This document shows positions 6,355 through 23,014 of a DNA stretch of 25,310 nucleotides, piece after piece. The position numbers were made by a program, and so were the translations under genes. The DNA comes from a virus: the IMG/VR virus record IMGVR_UViG_3300030333_003166, positions 1 to 25,310 of that record. One strand, given 5' to 3'. Position 1 is the first letter of the stretch. Every line of letters starts with the position of its first letter. Below the pieces are notes generated by a model, which was not told the DNA's origin, ran no database searches, and saw only the letters and a list, made by a program, of their open reading frames with translations.

Positions 6355-8078
6355 TGAGCATTTATCTCGACATTGAAGCAAATGGACTGAATCCCGACAC
6401 TATTTGGTGTGTGGTGACGAAGGACAACTGTAAGGATAGGGAAGGCACAACTATTGTCCATACTAGCCCTGATACCCTCCAGGACGCTCTGAGAGGCCGT
6501 ATGAGCGTAGTTGGACATAACCTCATAGGGTACGACCTCCCTGTGCTAAAATCGCTCTGGGGCGTTTCTGTGGAGCCTGAGAGGGTAATAGACACTTTAG
6601 TGTTATCCAGGTTGTCTAATCCATCCCGTGAAGGAGGACACAGTTTAAGAGCGTGGGGTGAGCGTTTGGGCTTTCCTAAAGGTGATTATAGTGATTGGTC
6701 ACAGTTAACTCAGGAAATGATTGACTATTGCATCCAGGACGTAAAAGTCACGGAGCATACCCACTTTAAGCTGATGACTGAAATGAGTGATTTTTCTCAG
6801 GAAAGCATTGATCTTGAACATAAGGTTCAATTTATCATACAGCAACAGATTCGCAATGGTTGGCTTTTGGATGAGCGTCAGGCATTTGATCTGTTAGCGG
6901 AACTAAAGGAGAAACAATTTGCTTTGGAGGAGGAAGTACATAAAACTTTCAAACCTCTGCCTACTTTTGTTAAACAGGTGAAACCTAAGTACAAGAAGGA
7001 CGGAAACCTGTCAACAGTAGGACTTAAATTTTTGGGTGATAACTGGCAGAACGTTTGCGGTGAGTTTAGCAGGATAGAATACATACCGTTTAACCTAGCC
7101 TCCAGAAAACAGATTGGCATACATTTAAAACGATTTGGTTGGAAACCTGAGACTTTTACGGAAACAGGCCAACCTATTGTGGATGAAGCTACTCTGTCTA
7201 AGGTCAAAGGCATACCGGAAGCCAAAATGATAGCGGAATATATTTTGGTTCAAAAAAGGATTGCTCAAGTTAAATCATGGGTTGATGCAATGGAACATGA
7301 CGGTAGAGTTAGAGGATTTGTTAATACAAACGGAGCAGTAACCGGACGTATGACACACTCTAAACCTAATCTTGCCCAAACACCTGCCAGTTATAGCCCG
7401 TTTGGAAAGGAATGTAGGAGTTGTTGGACTGTTCCTTTAGGACATAAGTTAGTAGGGGTGGACGCATCAGGTTTGGAATTAAGGATGCTTGCACATTATA
7501 TGAACGATCCAGAGTACACCAAGGAGATAGTCAATGGAGACATCCACACAGCTAACCAAAAAGCAGCGGGACTTCCAGATAGAGATTCAGCTAAAACTTT
7601 CATCTATAGTCTCATTTATGGGAGTGGGGATGAAAAACTTGGAAAGCTTGTCGGAGGATGTAGAAGTAGAGGCTCTGAACTTAGACAAAGATTCCTTGCC
7701 GCCACTCCAGCACTCTCTGATTTGCAAAAACGAGTTAGAAGAAAAGGAAGTGACGGAATTATTAGAGGGCTTGACGGAAGATTGCTCCAAGTTAGGTCAG
7801 AGCATTCAAGCCTTAATACTTTACTCCAAGCGGCCGGAGCAATAGTAATGAAACAAGCCTTGATACTTTTGGATAAGTTTGCTAAAGAATGGAACATTAA
7901 CTATAGCTTTGTGGGAAATATACATGACGAAATACAGACTGAAGTTAAAGCGGATCAAGCCGACAAGTTTGGTCACTTAGCTGTGTCATGTATTGAAGCG
8001 GCAGGTTTGCACTTTAACTTAAGATGTCCACTAACAGGGGAATATCATGTCGGAAATAACTGGTCTGAAACACACTAA
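6354..8078 (+). CDS. DNA polymerase, family A, T7-like with 3'-5' exonuclease
   Basis: 574 aa. ATG at 6354 overlaps the upstream TAA and follows AAGGAA; an earlier in-frame ATG at 6330 lacks a site and lies inside the preceding gene. The exonuclease has DIE (D6, E8), GHNLIGYD (D61) and a late YCIQD. The polymerase has motif A VGVDASGLELRM (D370), motif B AKTFIYSLIYG (K414, Y418, Y422) and motif C HDE at 524-526. Position 418, equivalent to E. coli Phe762, is Tyr, as in T7 polymerase. Size is shorter than T7 gp5, so the thioredoxin-binding loop may be small or absent. The last 13 codons are duplicated downstream of the methyltransferase. Confidence 0.93.
   Translation: MSIYLDIEANGLNPDTIWCVVTKDNCKDREGTTIVHTSPDTLQDALRGRMSVVGHNLIGYDLPVLKSLWGVSVEPERVIDTLVLSRLSNPSREGGHSLRAWGERLGFPKGDYSDWSQLTQEMIDYCIQDVKVTEHTHFKLMTEMSDFSQESIDLEHKVQFIIQQQIRNGWLLDERQAFDLLAELKEKQFALEEEVHKTFKPLPTFVKQVKPKYKKDGNLSTVGLKFLGDNWQNVCGEFSRIEYIPFNLASRKQIGIHLKRFGWKPETFTETGQPIVDEATLSKVKGIPEAKMIAEYILVQKRIAQVKSWVDAMEHDGRVRGFVNTNGAVTGRMTHSKPNLAQTPASYSPFGKECRSCWTVPLGHKLVGVDASGLELRMLAHYMNDPEYTKEIVNGDIHTANQKAAGLPDRDSAKTFIYSLIYGSGDEKLGKLVGGCRSRGSELRQRFLAATPALSDLQKRVRRKGSDGIIRGLDGRLLQVRSEHSSLNTLLQAAGAIVMKQALILLDKFAKEWNINYSFVGNIHDEIQTEVKADQADKFGHLAVSCIEAAGLHFNLRCPLTGEYHVGNNWSETH
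7534..7845 (+). other. nested +1-frame ORF inside polA with a good Shine-Dalgarno, probably not a gene
   Basis: 103 codons in +1 relative to polA, preceded by AAGGAG (7521-7526) at seven bases. The peptide is Lys/Glu/Leu-rich and matches nothing I recognise. AAGGAG here also encodes the conserved Lys-Glu of the polymerase, so chance is the simpler explanation. It is recorded as a control for the nested ORF at 8249. Confidence 0.15.
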
Positions 8079-8079
8079 A
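8036..8079 (+). repeat. 44-bp direct repeat, left copy (3' end of polA)
   Basis: Matches 9002-9045 at 43 of 44 positions, with 40 identical bases from 8040 to 8079. In the polymerase frame it encodes the last residues GEYHVGNNWSETH and the stop; in the next frame it opens MSEITGLKHTK of the methyltransferase. The two copies bracket that gene. Confidence 0.9.
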
Positions 8080-9003
8080 ATGAAGCATGTAGATGTTTTT
8101 AGTGGTATAGGCGGATTCCCGCTAGGCTTTGAGTGGGTAGGACTTAGCGAACCATCCATGTTTTGTGAGATTGAACCTTGGTGTAGACAAGTATTGAGAA
8201 AGCACTGGCCTACTGTACCTATAACAAATGACGTAAAGGAGTTAGCTAATGACCCAAGAAACCTTGTTCCCGACTGCGACATCATCACAGGAGGATACCC
8301 CTGTCAGCCGTTCAGTGTCGCAGGAAATCAAAAAGCGCATGAAGATGACAGACACCTCTGGCCGTACCTGTATCAAATTATTGCATGCAAAAGACCCACT
8401 TATGCAGTTCTCGAAAATGTTTATGGTCACATTGGATTGGGCCTCGACTCGGTGCTTCTTGACTTGGAAGCCGAAGGCTACTCCACAAGGACGTTTGTTG
8501 TTCCAGCTTGCTCCGTCAATGCTCCCCACAGAAGAGATAGATTGTGGATTGTGGCCTACTCCAACAGCAAGGGATTGGAAGGGTGGAAGGAAGCCAGAGA
8601 CTCTGAAGGCCAAGGGCAGACCTATAACGAACAGTCTACCAGATGCAGTGAGAGGAGAACTGTGGCCTACTCCAAGAAGCTCAAAGATCATGAACATGAC
8701 AATGGAGAGAGCACTCAACAGGATAGAAAACACAGGGTATCACAGCAACCTGGAGGAGAAGGTAGCCTTGGAGGAACAGAAGATGTGGCCGACTCCAAGA
8801 GCATCAACCAACGGACACGGAGAGGAGAGGGGAACTACCGAATCCGAATGGAATCGTGGGAGTCTGAACCCAACGTGGGTCGAGTGGCTAATGGGATACC
8901 CAGAAGGGTGGACAGACTTAGAGGATTAGGGAATGCGATTGTTCCGCAGATAGCTATGCAAATTGGGTTAACGATAAAGGAAATGGAAGCACAGCAAACA
9001 TAG
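8047..9003 (+). CDS. DNA (cytosine-5) methyltransferase
   Basis: 318 aa from ATG 8047 (an alternative ATG at 8080 lacks a ribosome binding site). All core motifs are present: I (DVFSGIGGFPLGFE), IV with catalytic C86 (GGYPCQPFS), VI (ENV, E123), VIII (RRDRLWIVA), and IX-X (RVDRLRGLGNAIVPQIA). It would transfer methyl groups from S-adenosylmethionine to cytosine. The target-recognition stretch between VIII and IX is built from three spaced copies of VA(Y/D)S and is rich in Gly, Arg and Gln. A second ORF lies wholly inside it in the +1 frame. No restriction enzyme is obvious, so protection of phage DNA from host restriction is the likely role. Confidence 0.9.
   Translation: MSEITGLKHTKMKHVDVFSGIGGFPLGFEWVGLSEPSMFCEIEPWCRQVLRKHWPTVPITNDVKELANDPRNLVPDCDIITGGYPCQPFSVAGNQKAHEDDRHLWPYLYQIIACKRPTYAVLENVYGHIGLGLDSVLLDLEAEGYSTRTFVVPACSVNAPHRRDRLWIVAYSNSKGLEGWKEARDSEGQGQTYNEQSTRCSERRTVAYSKKLKDHEHDNGESTQQDRKHRVSQQPGGEGSLGGTEDVADSKSINQRTRRGEGNYRIRMESWESEPNVGRVANGIPRRVDRLRGLGNAIVPQIAMQIGLTIKEMEAQQT
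8249..8929 (+). CDS. nested +1-frame ORF inside the methyltransferase gene (226 aa)
   Basis: It lies entirely within the methyltransferase gene but in the next frame. AAAGGAG (8235-8241) lies seven bases before its ATG, an optimal ribosome binding site. The product has a pattern I recognise from many database proteins associated with C5 methyltransferases: LTWKPKATPQGRLLFQL, three WPTP(T/R) motifs, and a C-terminal SLNPTWVEWLMGYPEGWTD. WPTP is the shifted reading of VAYS in the methyltransferase. Thus either both frames encode proteins or the apparent family is a frame shadow of conserved methyltransferase DNA. Function unknown. Confidence 0.5.
   Translation: MTQETLFPTATSSQEDTPVSRSVSQEIKKRMKMTDTSGRTCIKLLHAKDPLMQFSKMFMVTLDWASTRCFLTWKPKATPQGRLLFQLAPSMLPTEEIDCGLWPTPTARDWKGGRKPETLKAKGRPITNSLPDAVRGELWPTPRSSKIMNMTMERALNRIENTGYHSNLEEKVALEEQKMWPTPRASTNGHGEERGTTESEWNRGSLNPTWVEWLMGYPEGWTDLED
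8551..8798 (+). repeat. three 14-base direct repeats in the target-recognition region
   Basis: GTGGCCTACTCCAA occurs at 8551-8564 and 8662-8675, and with one change at 8785-8798. Start-to-start spacings of 111 and 123 bases keep both reading frames: VAYS or VADS in the methyltransferase, WPTP in the nested ORF. Confidence 0.8.
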
Positions 9004-9045
9004 GAGAATATCATGTCGGAAATAACTGGTCTGAAACACACTAAA
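9002..9045 (+). repeat. 44-bp direct repeat, right copy (start of the nuclease gene)
   Basis: Right copy of the sequence at 8036-8079. Here it supplies AGGAG, the ATG at 9013 and the first eleven codons of the nuclease gene. The single mismatch (A for G at 9005) improves the Shine-Dalgarno. Confidence 0.9.
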
Positions 9046-10941: not shown

Positions 10942-11324
10942 GCATAGACAATGCTACACCGGAAGAATGGAATAGATTATCTCGTGGGCCAGATAAACCG
11001 GAGGATTGTTTAATGTCTGCACAATCAACTAAAACTATTACTGGATCTTTATATCATCCTTCGGACAGTTTGTTGGACAAACAAATGTTTCCAAAGGAAG
11101 AACCAAAAGACAATGTTAATCATCCACCACATTACAACAAAGGTGGACTTGAGGCGATTGATTATATTCAACAGCAACTTGGTGACGGGTTTGTGGACTA
11201 TATTGAAGGTAACGTAATTAAATACTTACACAGGTATAAGTACAAAAACGGGGCAGAGGATCTTAAAAAAGCCGAATGGTATTTAAAAAAATTAATAGAG
11301 GAGCATACATTTAATTATGGATAG
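10938..11324 (+). CDS. DUF3310 protein (T7 gp1.7-related)
   Basis: 128 aa. Residues about 58-120 carry the DUF3310 pattern: NVNHPPHYNKGGLEAIDYIQ, then EGNVIKYLHRYKYKNGAEDLKKAEWYLKKLI. T7 gp1.7, which has nucleotide kinase activity, is linked to this family, so a role in nucleotide metabolism fits the adjacent reductase; the activity here is unproven. The N-terminal 55 residues are polar and probably flexible. It overlaps the reductase start by eight bases. Confidence 0.85.
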   Translation: MSIDNATPEEWNRLSRGPDKPEDCLMSAQSTKTITGSLYHPSDSLLDKQMFPKEEPKDNVNHPPHYNKGGLEAIDYIQQQLGDGFVDYIEGNVIKYLHRYKYKNGAEDLKKAEWYLKKLIEEHTFNYG

Positions 11325-13185
11325 TTATCAACAGTACATACACAAGAGTCGCTATGCCCGATATCTGCCCACTGAAAACCGCAGGGAAACATGGGAAGAA
11401 ACCGTTGGCAGATACATGAATTTCTGGAAGAGTAGAGGCGTTAAGTTTAAGGCTAATGAAGCTGAAGAACTTGAGGAAGCTATCCTGGACATGGACATTA
11501 TGCCTTCCATGAGGGCGTTAATGACCGCTGGGGAAGCTCTGGACAGAGACAATGTAGCAGGGTTCAACTGCTCCTACATTACCATAGATAACCCTAGAGC
11601 CTTTGATGAAATGATGTACATCCTGATGTGTGGAACAGGAGTAGGTTTTAGTGTGGAACGTCAGTACATTAAGAAACTGCCGGAAATAGCGGAGGATTTC
11701 CATGACACCGACACTATCATACACGTTGCAGACTCAAAAATTGGATGGGCGAAATCGTACAGGGAATTGGTGTCGTTGCTGTATTCAGGTCAATTACCCA
11801 AATGGGACATCAGTGGAGTTAGACCTGCGGGTTCCGCACTCAAAACATTTGGAGGCAGAGCGTCTGGTCCTGAACCGCTTGTTGACTTGTTCAACTTTAC
11901 CGTGGGGGTATTTAAAGGAGCGGCTGGAAGAAAGCTTAACTCCCTTGAATGCCACGATATTTGCTGTAAAATTGCACAAGTCGTCGTGGTTGGTGGGGTC
12001 AGAAGGTCTGCACTAATTAGTTTAAGCAACTTGACTGACGATAGAATCCGTAGAGCTAAACACGGACAGTGGTGGGTTGATGAGCCACAGAGAGGTCTGT
12101 CCAATAACTCAGCCTGTTACACTGAAACGCCTGACTTTGGTGCGTTTATAAATGAATGGAGGAGTTTATATGAATCAAAATCCGGAGAAAGAGGAATCTT
12201 TAGCCGTATTGCAAGTCAGAAGCAAGCTGCAAGAAATGGTAGAAGAGATGCTGAAAGAGATTTCGGGACAAACCCCTGTTCGGAAATCATCCTCAGACCA
12301 AACCAATTTTGTAATCTTTCCGAAGTCGTTGTTAGACCGACAGATACATTTCAAAGTCTCCAACGAAAAGTACGAAATGCAACTATCCTTGGAACTCTCC
12401 AAGCTACCCTCACGGACTTTAGATACTTAAGGAAAGTCTGGGAGGACAACACTAAGGAAGAAGCATTACTGGGAGTGTCCCTGACGGGTATTCTGGACAG
12501 TTCTTTAATGAACTTAAGGAATAAAAACTTGCCTACTGTACTACAAGCACTTAGGGACGAAGCCATTAAAACTAATAAGGAATGGTCTAAGCGTCTAGGT
12601 ATTGCACAGTCTGCTGCTATAACGTGTGTTAAACCAAGTGGTACTGTGTCTCAGTTAGTGGACAGTGCCAGTGGTATTCACCCACGGTACAGTCAGTATT
12701 ACATCAGGAGAGTCAGGGCTGACATGAGAGATCCTTTGTGTAAAGTCCTGGAGGACGCTGGAGTGCCTTCTGAGGTGGACATAACGTCACCCTCTACCAA
12801 AGTATTCAGTTTCCCTAAAAAGTCCCCAAAGGACGCTGTGTTGGCTTCTGAGCAGAAAGCAAAGGATCAGTTAAAGTTATGGTCTATTTACCAGGAACAC
12901 TGGTGTGAACATAAGCCCAGCATTACCGTGTACTACAGGGACAATGAGTTCTTGGGTATCGGGGATTGGGTGTACAACAATTTTGATTCCGTCTCAGGTA
13001 TTTCATTTTTACCTTATTCGGATCACACCTATGAGCAAGCACCTTATGAGGAAATAACCAAGGACCAGTACAATAAAATGGTCAAGGGTTTTCCAAAGGA
13101 GTTTAATTGGGACATAGATGAGAGTCAGGACAATACTGAAGGAGCACAGACATTAGCCTGTGTTGGAGGAGCCTGTGAGCTATAG
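11317..13185 (+). CDS. nrdJ: adenosylcobalamin-dependent ribonucleotide reductase, class II monomeric
   Basis: 622 aa. It reduces ribonucleoside triphosphates to deoxy forms, using a radical made from adenosylcobalamin. Visible signatures: C85 in FNCSY (one of the active-site disulfide pair), C321 in NPCSEIILR (thiyl radical cysteine) followed by NQFCNLSEV, a VKPSGTVSQL strand, and the C-terminal redox pair C615/C620 in CVGGACEL. Length is somewhat below the bacterial monomeric enzymes. Class II needs no oxygen and no small subunit but depends on host B12. The Shine-Dalgarno of the next gene is written in the codons of the C-terminal GG motif. Confidence 0.93.
   Translation: MDSYQQYIHKSRYARYLPTENRRETWEETVGRYMNFWKSRGVKFKANEAEELEEAILDMDIMPSMRALMTAGEALDRDNVAGFNCSYITIDNPRAFDEMMYILMCGTGVGFSVERQYIKKLPEIAEDFHDTDTIIHVADSKIGWAKSYRELVSLLYSGQLPKWDISGVRPAGSALKTFGGRASGPEPLVDLFNFTVGVFKGAAGRKLNSLECHDICCKIAQVVVVGGVRRSALISLSNLTDDRIRRAKHGQWWVDEPQRGLSNNSACYTETPDFGAFINEWRSLYESKSGERGIFSRIASQKQAARNGRRDAERDFGTNPCSEIILRPNQFCNLSEVVVRPTDTFQSLQRKVRNATILGTLQATLTDFRYLRKVWEDNTKEEALLGVSLTGILDSSLMNLRNKNLPTVLQALRDEAIKTNKEWSKRLGIAQSAAITCVKPSGTVSQLVDSASGIHPRYSQYYIRRVRADMRDPLCKVLEDAGVPSEVDITSPSTKVFSFPKKSPKDAVLASEQKAKDQLKLWSIYQEHWCEHKPSITVYYRDNEFLGIGDWVYNNFDSVSGISFLPYSDHTYEQAPYEEITKDQYNKMVKGFPKEFNWDIDESQDNTEGAQTLACVGGACEL
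12170..12430 (+). other. nested +1-frame ORF inside nrdJ, probably not a gene
   Basis: 86 codons in +1 relative to nrdJ, with GGAGGAG (12158-12164) five bases before ATG 12170. The peptide is acidic and helical and matches no family known to me. The host frame around the radical cysteine is strongly conserved, and AT-poor GGAGGAG arises from its Trp-Arg-Ser codons, so this is likely fortuitous. Confidence 0.15.
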
Positions 13186-13561
13186 CGATAAAGTTTTAGA
13201 TCATTATGATAACCCTAGAAACGTAGGGAAACTTGATGAGAAGGACAAAGCTGTAGGAACTGGTATGGTTGGTGCACCTGCCTGTGGTGACGTAATGAAA
13301 CTACAGATCAAGGTGAATGACAGTGGGGTAATAGAGGATGCCAAGTTTAAAACTTATGGTTGTGGCTCCGCTATTGCCTCCAGTTCATTATTAACTGAGT
13401 GGGTTAAAGGTAAAAAACTTAGTGAGGCAGAGGACATTAAGAACTCTGAGATTGCACAGGAGCTTTCTTTACCACCCGTTAAAATTCATTGTAGTGTATT
13501 AGCTGAAGACGCTATTAAGGCGGCTGTGGCTGATCTCAGGAGGAAACAAAATGACACTTAA
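13175..13561 (+). CDS. iscU: IscU-type Fe-S cluster scaffold protein
   Basis: 128 aa from GTG 13175, which gives MSYSDKVLDHYDNPRNVG, the normal IscU N-terminus; GGAGG lies five bases upstream. All cluster ligands are present: C37 and D39 (GAPACGD), C63 (YGCGSAIASS), H105 and C106. The chaperone-recognition motif LPPVK (99-103), bound by HscA, is intact. IscU receives sulfur from IscS and iron and hands clusters to apo-proteins, so this would work with host IscS/HscAB. It overlaps nrdJ by 11 bases. The likely client within the phage is the Cys-cluster nuclease at 9366. Confidence 0.92.
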   Translation: MSYSDKVLDHYDNPRNVGKLDEKDKAVGTGMVGAPACGDVMKLQIKVNDSGVIEDAKFKTYGCGSAIASSSLLTEWVKGKKLSEAEDIKNSEIAQELSLPPVKIHCSVLAEDAIKAAVADLRRKQNDT

Positions 13562-20371: not shown

Positions 20372-23014
20372 TTATCCACGACCTTGATTTAAAAAATTAA
20401 AAAAACTAGCTGGAGCTACAGCGTATTGATTGTAAGCGTTGGCAAATTGATTTCGAGCGTCCAACATGCCTGGTTGTTGTCTTTGAGATTGATTAAAAGC
20501 TGTTTGTTGAGGTTGTCCTTCCGTAGAACCTCCTAATAAACCTTGTAAAAATCCTTCAGAACTCATCATTGACATAGGTAAAGCAGCTAAACCTATTTTT
20601 GCTGGGTTCCATTGTGGACCGCCAGTAAACGGAGTAAAGTTAGTTTGACCACTACCTCCACCACCGCCACCGCTTAAATCTAAATCATCCTCGTCATCGT
20701 CACTAGGGGTTCCTGGTCCTGATCCTTTAGGAATACAAGAATCATGTGTTGGTGAGCCATCAACGGTATCAAAAATATAACCTTCTTTACAAGGACCACA
20801 ACGTCCGTCTTCCAAAACTGTTGCATTAGGGTCAGAACAAGTGTATTTAAAGGGTACACAATTTCCTTCTCCGTCTTCCTTATAGCCGCTAATACATTGA
20901 CCACAGCTAGTTTCTCCGGCTCCTATTCCTCTATCTCCAGTTGAAACAGTTACTCTATTTTGTGCTGCACAATCAGGATCAGTGTTTTTACATTCCTCTG
21001 GATTTGCCGCAGCATACTCTGGATTACTACAGTCTTGAACTGGAGTATCAGTATCAGGTACACATAAATCCGTTTCATTTCTATTGTACCCTGAATTACA
21101 TTCACCACAACTTCCGTCAGCATTAACTTGGGAATTAGGATCAGAACACGTTTGTTTTTCTACACACACTCCATCTATATCTACAAAATTTCCTAAACAC
21201 CCACCGCAAGTTGTTGGATCAGCAGGGTTGTCTTGCCTATTTTGTTCGGCACAAGAAGTTCCTTCTACGTCAGGAACACATTTATCTAAAACTGGATCAC
21301 ATTTGTAAGGTACTCCGTCTACGTCAGGACAACCGCCTTCAGGACAACCTAAACTTTGCTCACACACTAAATCAGCATCAATCCAACCACCATTACAAGG
21401 TTTTTCACATCCAGAAGGAGAACTATCGTTTTCTCTTGCTCCTTCACCGTATGTATCGGAACAATAGTTTTCTGTAGGGGTATCTGGAAGCTCACAGGAA
21501 GTTCCATTCCAAGTTCCTCCCCTTTCCGCACATTCTTCTTCTTCAGCAGTTAAATTGGTTTTTGTTACAAGTCCACCTAATACGGAAGAACCAATTATTG
21601 CCCATACCCAAGGAGGCCATTGGCTTGCGTCTGGACCAAATATATCCATAAGGTCATCTAATACTTCCTTAGGTAAATCAGCCCAAGTACATTCTTTAGG
21701 AGTTCCATCAGGTTCTTTACAATTTCCAGTTAAAATATCACCGTATTTTCCTGCTCCTGTTATTTTATCTTCTAAAGTTTCAATTTTACCTATAACTTGT
21801 CCAAGAACGTCTGTACCAATGCCTACAACAGATCCAATAGCACCACCTATTAAATCTCCAGGACTACAAGTATCACTTATACAACAATCTGCGTTTGGCT
21901 GTAAAACACATAAACTATTTGAAATACGTTCCGTTGCTGTACAATCTCTTTCATTTCCATCATCGTCTATTTTTGTACATTCTATTTTACCGGAAATAGT
22001 ATCAAATATACCTCCAACTTTTTGCATCATTTCCCAAATACTAGGAGTTTTAAATATGCCTACACCTAATATTTTAGCCCATTCAGGTAAATTAATAATG
22101 GAAGGAAACATAATCCTAAGATTATCTAAAATTGCTTCAGCATCACAATCACGACCTAGAACACACTCAGCAAAAATGTTATCTAACTCAGCCCAAATAC
22201 CTACATCGTTAGTTATTGGAAACTGTCCATTAGCCTCAACCCAAGAAGCTAAATGTGGATTGTTTTTCATGTCCGGATTATTATTTAATAAATCCGCTAA
22301 TTCATCTACGCTAGTAGCATCTAAAATTTGTTGTCCAAAGTCAGCAGCTTCTTGTTTAGCTACAGTATCACCACCAGAATCCCAATCTTCAACATTTCCA
22401 CCAGCATTAATAAAATCTTGAAACTCATCAATTTTATCGGCAAAGTCAGGATATTGAGATTTAATTTGATTTAGAATGTTAGGTAAAACAGTTTTTTCAA
22501 ACCATTCTCTACCTCCTTCCTGAGTCATTATTTCTTCAATCCATTTAGGAGTACCGCTGAGACTTCCTTGTCCTAACAATCTTCCTAAAGCTTCCCAATC
22601 AGGTTTTCCTTCAGGGAAAAATTCCTTTGAAGTATAACCTATGTTTAAATAATCCCAAATTGCAGGAAATTTATTTACATTGCCTAATAAGTCTGTCCAA
22701 TAATCGTTATTTGGACCATCATAATAACCAGAAGTATCATCAATAATAGTATTTACATTAGCAGGAATATTATTTAATGACGATGCAGGAGATAACATAC
22801 CTGTTGATCTACTTTGTTTGTTTGTATTAGTGTTGGTATTAGTTGCTCTAGTATTAGGAACATTTGTTACAACATTTGGCAAAACAACAGGTACATTAGG
22901 TACAACGGCTGAAACATTAGAAACAGCTTGTGGAACATAAACAGGAATATTTTGACGAACATCAGGAATCCTGTTGTTTAATATTTGCTCTATGTTAACT
23001 GGAAGCCAAGCCAT
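20372..23014 (-). CDS. large cysteine-rich virion-type protein (880 aa)
   Basis: Four zones are visible. Residues 20-75 are a Val/Pro/Asn low-complexity stretch. Residues 110-465 hold a mixed domain, followed near 466-485 by a hydrophobic segment (WVWAIIGSSVLGGLV). Residues about 491-761 hold 28 cysteines, including four repeats of the form C-x(n)-CGxC-x2-G(Y/F)-x(n)-C, similar in spacing to EGF/TNFR-like modules. Then come an acidic linker, SGGGGGGSG and a Gln/Asn-rich end. It is not a known family to me. Its position between holin candidate and adaptor suggests a surface or tail component, perhaps an adhesin; disulfides would form outside the cytoplasm. Confidence 0.6.
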   Translation of the reverse strand: MAWLPVNIEQILNNRIPDVRQNIPVYVPQAVSNVSAVVPNVPVVLPNVVTNVPNTRATNTNTNTNKQSRSTGMLSPASSLNNIPANVNTIIDDTSGYYDGPNNDYWTDLLGNVNKFPAIWDYLNIGYTSKEFFPEGKPDWEALGRLLGQGSLSGTPKWIEEIMTQEGGREWFEKTVLPNILNQIKSQYPDFADKIDEFQDFINAGGNVEDWDSGGDTVAKQEAADFGQQILDATSVDELADLLNNNPDMKNNPHLASWVEANGQFPITNDVGIWAELDNIFAECVLGRDCDAEAILDNLRIMFPSIINLPEWAKILGVGIFKTPSIWEMMQKVGGIFDTISGKIECTKIDDDGNERDCTATERISNSLCVLQPNADCCISDTCSPGDLIGGAIGSVVGIGTDVLGQVIGKIETLEDKITGAGKYGDILTGNCKEPDGTPKECTWADLPKEVLDDLMDIFGPDASQWPPWVWAIIGSSVLGGLVTKTNLTAEEEECAERGGTWNGTSCELPDTPTENYCSDTYGEGARENDSSPSGCEKPCNGGWIDADLVCEQSLGCPEGGCPDVDGVPYKCDPVLDKCVPDVEGTSCAEQNRQDNPADPTTCGGCLGNFVDIDGVCVEKQTCSDPNSQVNADGSCGECNSGYNRNETDLCVPDTDTPVQDCSNPEYAAANPEECKNTDPDCAAQNRVTVSTGDRGIGAGETSCGQCISGYKEDGEGNCVPFKYTCSDPNATVLEDGRCGPCKEGYIFDTVDGSPTHDSCIPKGSGPGTPSDDDEDDLDLSGGGGGGSGQTNFTPFTGGPQWNPAKIGLAALPMSMMSSEGFLQGLLGGSTEGQPQQTAFNQSQRQQPGMLDARNQFANAYNQYAVAPASFFNFLNQGRG

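Follow-up and report, generated by a model that had tools for sequence, protein, structure and literature searches.

The methyltransferase gene of a virus recorded in IMG/VR appears to encode one heterodimeric DNA cytosine-5 methyltransferase in two overlapping reading frames, of the M.EcoHK31I kind, with a catalytic chain in the outer frame and a chain responsible for recognition and carrying motif IX in the nested frame. We consider this reading to be highly probable (about 85%). The window analysed is a stretch of 25,310 nucleotides, in which the C5 methyltransferase ORF (8047-9003) holds a 226-codon ORF in the +1 frame (8249-8929). The outer protein is named alpha and the nested protein is named beta. 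Beta is almost certainly a real gene and, as it provides motif IX and very probably also target recognition, both frames together would make one enzyme. To our knowledge, bacteria and phages rarely have long, deeply conserved overlaps on one strand in which selection acts on both proteins.

The nested ORF had been noticed in an original prediction made from the sequence of the window, and the layout described there is confirmed. The ORF is present on the plus strand, starts with ATG and lies in the +1 frame within the methyltransferase ORF, and the motif AAAGGAG precedes its ATG with a spacing of exactly 7 nt. The nested-frame peptides quoted at that time, LTWKPKATPQGRLLFQL, three copies of WPTP and NPTWVEWLMGYPEGWTD, are all present. 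The statement that the catalytic gene is dual-coding over almost its whole length is approximately correct, since 681 of 921-957 nt are shared, but the beginning of the gene with motifs I-III and most of motif X lie outside the overlap. The range in length reflects the start of alpha, which is either 8047, with AGGGGA upstream, or 8083, where homology to relatives begins. The features of the locus are as follows.

8036-8079, plus strand: left copy of a 44-nt direct repeat that bounds the inserted cassette; it carries the Shine-Dalgarno sequence (SD) and the upstream ATG of alpha.
8047-9003, plus strand: alpha, catalytic chain of an m5C DNA methyltransferase (PF00145, PHROG 363, AlphaFold/Foldseek to M.HhaI).
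8235-8241, plus strand: SD of beta, AAAGGAG, within the alpha codons V-K-E (codon usage in 124 alphas).
8249-8929, plus strand: beta, nested +1-frame ORF of 226 aa with an ATG start, comprising modules and motif IX (conservation, dual-frame constraint, PHROG 1008).
8293-8316, plus strand: motif IV of alpha, GYPCQPFS, with the catalytic Cys (from the sequence; G71, P73, C74 and S78 invariant in 75 alphas).
8456-8518, plus strand: hairpin core of beta, FLTWKPKATPQGRLLFQLAPS (AlphaFold strands 70-77 and 83-90; block pLDDT 86-88).
8527-8556, plus strand: motif VIII region of alpha, HRRDRLWIVA (H149, R151 and R153 invariant; aligned to a canonical methyltransferase).
8552-8662, plus strand: module 1 of beta, WPTPTARDWKGG... 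(common to loci L011, L015, L138, L019, L003 and L001).
8663-8785, plus strand: module 2 of beta, WPTPRSSKIMN... (common to L001 and L002).
8786-8863, plus strand: module 3 of beta, WPTPRASTNGHG... (no close partner found in the module comparison).
8864-8920, plus strand: motif IX in the beta frame, LNPTWVEWLMGYPEGWTDL (aligned to canonical motif IX and to the alpha-frame motif IX of L239).
8914-8973, plus strand: motif X in the alpha frame, RLRGLGNAIVPQIAMQIG (R278, G283, N284 and P288 invariant).
9002-9045, plus strand: right copy of the 44-nt direct repeat; it carries the SD and ATG of the downstream ORF.

Alpha exhibits the catalytic fold of C5 methyltransferases, with motifs I, IV (PCQ), VI (ENV), VIII and X. 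PF00145 matches residues 12-229 only (E = 7e-38), PHROG 363 matches as well, and the catalytic domain is predicted by AlphaFold with a pLDDT above 90, with Foldseek matches to M.HhaI (E = 3e-13) and also to M.HaeIII. The original prediction had placed motifs I-X in this frame, which is wrong: alpha comprises motifs I-VIII and X, and at the place where motif IX is expected its sequence is EPNVGRVANGIPRRVDR. Alpha also has no folded TRD between motifs VIII and X in its own chain, this segment (residues 169-272) being predicted to be disordered, with a pLDDT of about 40.

Motif IX is found in the beta frame. The C-terminal sequence at residues 206-224 of beta aligns with the canonical motif IX, LTPMECERLMGFPDNHT, of single-frame relatives. 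In a comparison with the canonical motif IX profile, hhalign gave an E-value of 0.003 and a probability of 9.7%, which is low because the match is only 25 columns long. In the bacterial loci L233 and L239, motif IX (LNPDWVEWLMGFP...WTE) is located in the frame of alpha, just ahead of motif X, and the +1 ORF terminates before reaching motif IX; the alpha-frame motif IX of L239 is identical to that of the beta of the window at 14 of 19 positions. This comparison offers the strongest link of the end of beta to what is probably its motif IX. Among the viral alphas of the beta-bearing set, none has a motif IX of its own. The presence of this motif in one frame, and never in both, is as expected if alpha and beta form one enzyme. 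Motif IX has also switched frame between lineages, as seen from its location in the two bacterial contigs.

The modelling of beta alone was less informative. Its AlphaFold model is poor (pLDDT 65), save for the hairpin and helices, the hairpin core being the most confidently predicted portion. With Foldseek, no PDB fold matched beta better than E = 0.6, the model being too uncertain; comparison of its sequence with the PDB, as a single sequence and as a profile, gave nothing significant; and comparison with Pfam gave no family, only sub-threshold chance matches. A poor model of the lone chain is as expected of a chain that would fold only with its partner, which is not positive evidence, and a TRD fold of beta is a prediction. 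As no fold or Pfam family is recognised for beta by itself, and as its association with alpha is itself deduced, it could be a real overprinted protein with a separate function, for example anti-restriction or regulatory, instead of a methyltransferase subunit. We consider this unlikely in view of the lack of motif IX and of a folded TRD in alpha, the presence of motif IX in exactly one frame, L233 and L239 included, and the occurrence of alpha and beta together throughout the alpha-selected viral set.

Because loci retrieved by means of beta itself would be biased, viral and bacterial collections were queried solely with the 55 residues of alpha that precede beta. In the set selected in this way on the N-terminus of alpha, a +1-frame ORF matching the beta profile was present in 74 of 74 complete viral loci and in 64 of 76 bacterial loci. 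Viral contigs, phages of Firmicutes, Bacteroides and enterobacteria, and the genomes of bacteria from many phyla all contain beta-bearing loci, most of which are annotated in one frame only. The Sphingomonas locus L206 differs from the usual full nesting in that beta extends past the stop of alpha (beta to 4940, alpha to 4666). Five other loci (L087, L181, L182, L254 and L088) exhibit the start of alpha and the end of beta, or the start of beta and the end of alpha, in one frame, as if joined by an indel; these may be broken genes, assembly errors or single-chain variants. Stops that were apparent in alpha in eight loci proved to be upstream of the true alpha start.

The +1 frame is open to an unusual extent in these loci. 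Its median open fraction was 0.91, compared with 0.41 (viral) and 0.48 (bacterial) after synonymous-codon shuffling. Stops were counted over fixed alignment columns, not over the longest open run. Over the fixed interval, the nested frame of the window alpha has no stops, compared with 7.6 expected after synonymous-codon shuffling, and 66 of 73 viral homologues, picked blind to the nested frame, have none, with 6.2 expected per locus. Frequent nested-frame stops in homologues, which had been named beforehand as evidence against a second gene, are therefore not the case. A related clade of single-frame enzymes (L090-L100), which carry motif IX in alpha and served as a negative control, has 11-18 stops in the +1 frame, so that an open +1 frame is not general to such genes. 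Nevertheless, +1 frames are naturally fairly open, as the codon-shuffle null leaves 0.4-0.5 of the interval open, and PHROG 1008, which matches 85 of 85 aligned betas, is itself labelled 'DNA methyltransferase'. Both points would fit a shadow ORF, in which translation is confined to the methyltransferase and the nested family is conserved DNA read in the other frame. Against this explanation stand the substitution patterns in the two frames and the signals at the start of beta.

As the sequences share ancestry, we put weight on effect size and on sharp borders, not on p-values; the homologues are not phylogenetically independent, which leaves the rate ratios firm and simple p-values not. Among 124 distinct viral alphas, the third-position diversity of alpha was 0.576 before beta, 0.402 over motifs IV-VIII, 0.36 at the end of beta and 0.652 past its stop. 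The proposed check of synonymous sites revealed a strong excess constraint, with 0.43 differences per site outside the overlap and 0.17 inside. In 51 disjoint pairs, the rate of changes that are synonymous in alpha and nonsynonymous in beta was 0.433 before, 0.169 inside and 0.420 after the overlap, and that of beta-silent, alpha-nonsynonymous changes rose from 0.084 to 0.21. Alpha-synonymous sites are thus depleted inside the overlap only, which a shadow ORF does not account for. The overall ratios were 0.445 for beta (dNN/dNS; bootstrap 0.367-0.523) and 0.551 for alpha (dNN/dSN; bootstrap 0.488-0.612), and purifying selection acts on both frames. No comparable signal was seen in the +2 control frame (dNN/dNS 0.93-1.79).

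The contribution of each frame depends on the region. The dNN/dSN of alpha was 0.19 over motifs IV-VIII, 0.92 in the variable part between motifs VIII and IX, and 0.48 at motif IX, and the corresponding dNN/dNS of beta was 0.38, 0.46 and 0.29. For the variable part, DNA matches were picked blind to the frame, in place of pairs chosen by beta identity. Beta was the best-conserved frame in 1057 of these 1058 matches, and the differences fell on positions 1, 2 and 3 of the beta codons in proportions of 22, 13 and 65%. These values are close to the textbook signs of an interval in which beta is the selected frame, with a nearly neutral alpha passing through as filler. A neutral alpha, together with the 65% of differences at third positions of beta, is again contrary to a shadow ORF.

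The start of beta is conserved at the expense of the codon usage of alpha. Among 124 alphas, the Lys codon that forms the AAGG of the SD of beta is AAG in 117 and AAA in 1, compared with a background of 258:213 in non-overlapping alpha, and the Asn codon that makes the ATG of beta is AAT in 85 and AAC in 0 (background 174:123). An SD core is found ahead of beta in 116 of the 124, and beta starts with ATG in 97, GTG in 17 and TTG in 10. As the alpha codons are fixed so as to keep both SD and ATG, independent initiation, which AAAGGAG had been predicted to permit, is the likely route by which beta would be produced. The fixation of these codons against background usage, and the +2 frame without such a signal, make a shadow ORF extremely improbable, unless something other than coding, restricted to the borders of beta, produces these patterns. 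The original prediction had also set out the opposing view, that the second family is only a shadow of conserved methyltransferase DNA; this view is rejected, and the dual-coding reading is supported by the stop counts in homologues and by the excess constraint at alpha-synonymous sites, every computable sign that could have spoken against it having failed to appear.

The position of the variable part, which is selected in the beta frame directly after motif VIII, would also be compatible with a programmed +1 frameshift that fuses the catalytic part of alpha to the beta-frame recognition part in a single chain, and in L087 and L182 the start of alpha and the end of beta are indeed in one frame. 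However, the first 100 codons of beta would be absent from such a product and are constrained (dNN/dNS of 0.38 over motifs IV-VIII), and the frameshift fusion is rejected on this ground. The fixed SD and start codon of beta, and motif X, which stays in the alpha frame past the stop of beta, also render it very unlikely.

In the preferred reading of two chains, the recognition part of beta appears to be modular. Between the hairpin and motif IX, beta comprises 1-5 units, each starting with W-x-TP, whose median length is 42 aa; the beta of the window has three, starting at 8552, 8663 and 8786. By sequence similarity, the units form 45 clusters. Similar units of different loci occupy a different ordinal position, or lie in betas that differ in their number of units, in 1356 of 1897 pairs. 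Among 965 pairs in a gapless subset, module identity exceeded backbone identity by at least 0.2 in 434, and some pairs show 81% module identity on 17-23% backbone identity. As far as sequences can tell, such sharing of units at differing positions is the behaviour of exchangeable recognition domains, and exchangeable units of about 40 aa between motifs VIII and IX, by which tandem-TRD methyltransferases are recognised, are found in beta. At the DNA level, a 24-nt repeat, TGTGGCC(T/G)ACTCCAA..., at 8550-8573, 8661-8684 and 8784-8807 underlies the WPTP units of beta and VAYS/VADS in alpha.

What appears to be new here is the mosaic make-up of beta, whose 1-5 modules of about 42 aa are common to otherwise distant betas. 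By analogy, each unit may read its own target. Beta could then be an overprinted modular specificity subunit, with each module of about 42 aa a separate TRD that phages gain, lose and exchange, a proposal for which we judge the odds to be even. If true, a phage would alter its methylated motifs by swapping DNA that the catalytic frame reads as a neutral linker.

The small chain of M.EcoHK31I is likewise encoded in an alternative frame within the gene of the large chain, and methylation in vitro by enzymes of this type depends on the two polypeptides together. In this enzyme (YGGCCR; Lee et al. 1995, as cited in PMC3404938), motifs I-VIII and X are on the large chain, motif IX is on the small chain, and the predicted TRD is on the large chain. 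By published motif layout, our locus is similar, with motifs I-VIII and X but no motif IX in alpha, and with a separate small chain, beta, that carries motif IX. In contrast to M.EcoHK31I, the evidence presented here puts the TRD on beta, since the region between motifs VIII and IX is selected in beta, which makes a TRD on the small chain probable, and beta is here a variable string of modules. A plasmid search for an EcoHK31I-like restriction-modification system retrieved only 18 distant records, none of them enterobacterial. The M.EcoHK31I plan was therefore known, and a version of it in which the recognition chain is modular seems to be widespread among phages and bacteria.

In M.AquI, a single C5 methyltransferase is naturally divided into two polypeptides, with motifs IX and X on the small chain and the variable region divided between the chains (PMC3404938). 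Our locus resembles it as one C5 methyltransferase in two chains, whereas here alpha retains motif X and the two chains are separated by means of overlapping frames. The tandem TRDs of the Bacillus-phage enzymes sit between motifs VIII and IX. Phage SPR, phage H2 and their relatives encode such multispecific m5C methyltransferases with several TRDs in tandem (PMC8936443). The 1-5 tandem units between motifs VIII and IX of a phage methyltransferase are a shared trait, but those enzymes are single chains in a single frame, and the putative recognition units described here are in a separate, overprinted +1-frame chain. In the ShiLan element, an HNH endonuclease is found out of frame inside a phage methylase gene (PMC11855218), which is also a second protein in the other frame of such a gene. 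Unlike this inserted homing nuclease, beta is co-extensive with the catalytic and recognition region of the methyltransferase itself and does not represent an insertion into it.

One annotated case is gp51 of Paenibacillus phage Redbud (AJK27910.1), which belongs to the same family, has the same nested layout and is annotated 'g50 internal gene'. The records of Redbud gp51 and PHROG 1008 read 'hypothetical protein' or simply 'DNA methyltransferase' and state no role in motif IX or as a recognition chain. In four other phage records examined (C72C1, R9.1, ESSI2_ev129 and BKO1-TP3), only the outer frame is annotated and beta is unannotated.

In the proposed mechanism, alpha, with motifs I-VIII and X, would bind S-adenosylmethionine, flip the cytosine and attack it via the catalytic Cys, and its segment between motifs VIII and X would serve as a disordered read-through linker. 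Beta, starting at its own SD and ATG inside alpha, would complete the small domain with its helical/hairpin N-terminal part, its exchangeable modules and motif IX. Motif IX would stabilise the small domain, and one or more modules would contact the major groove. As a result, the phage genome would be methylated and presumably resist restriction by the host. Within this scheme, we infer that the chains assemble, that beta sets the specificity and that phage DNA is thereby protected from restriction. The two-chain reading would explain why many 'DNA cytosine methyltransferases' seem to have neither motif IX nor TRD. It also carries a warning, since the enzyme would be lost if the annotated gene were cloned with its codons recoded, and the locus would provide a recognition chain for m5C methylation that is natural, modular and separable.

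The methyltransferase forms an inserted cassette that separates polA from a PD-(D/E)XK-like ORF and is flanked by the 44-nt direct repeat. A relative with a 98% identical polA has no insert and another relative has the methyltransferase; in other relatives a different small gene occupies this site, and two of these relatives share the flanking duplication. The site is empty in L267, L269 and L270, the methyltransferase is present in L268, and L273 and L274 carry a different ORF, of 113 aa, that has the duplicated leader too. The polA/PD-(D/E)XK junction is an insertion hot spot, and the 44-nt repeat gives an SD and an ATG to both the insert and the downstream gene.

Two other genes of the window were recorded. 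On the minus strand, 20372-23014, in the structural region, encodes an 880-aa cysteine-rich, repetitive protein that looks EGF-like, with no convincing Pfam family. A phage-encoded iron-sulphur scaffold protein of the NifU_N/IscU type (13160-13561; PF01592, E = 4e-54) directly follows a ribonucleotide reductase gene with domains of the B12-dependent type (11317-13185).
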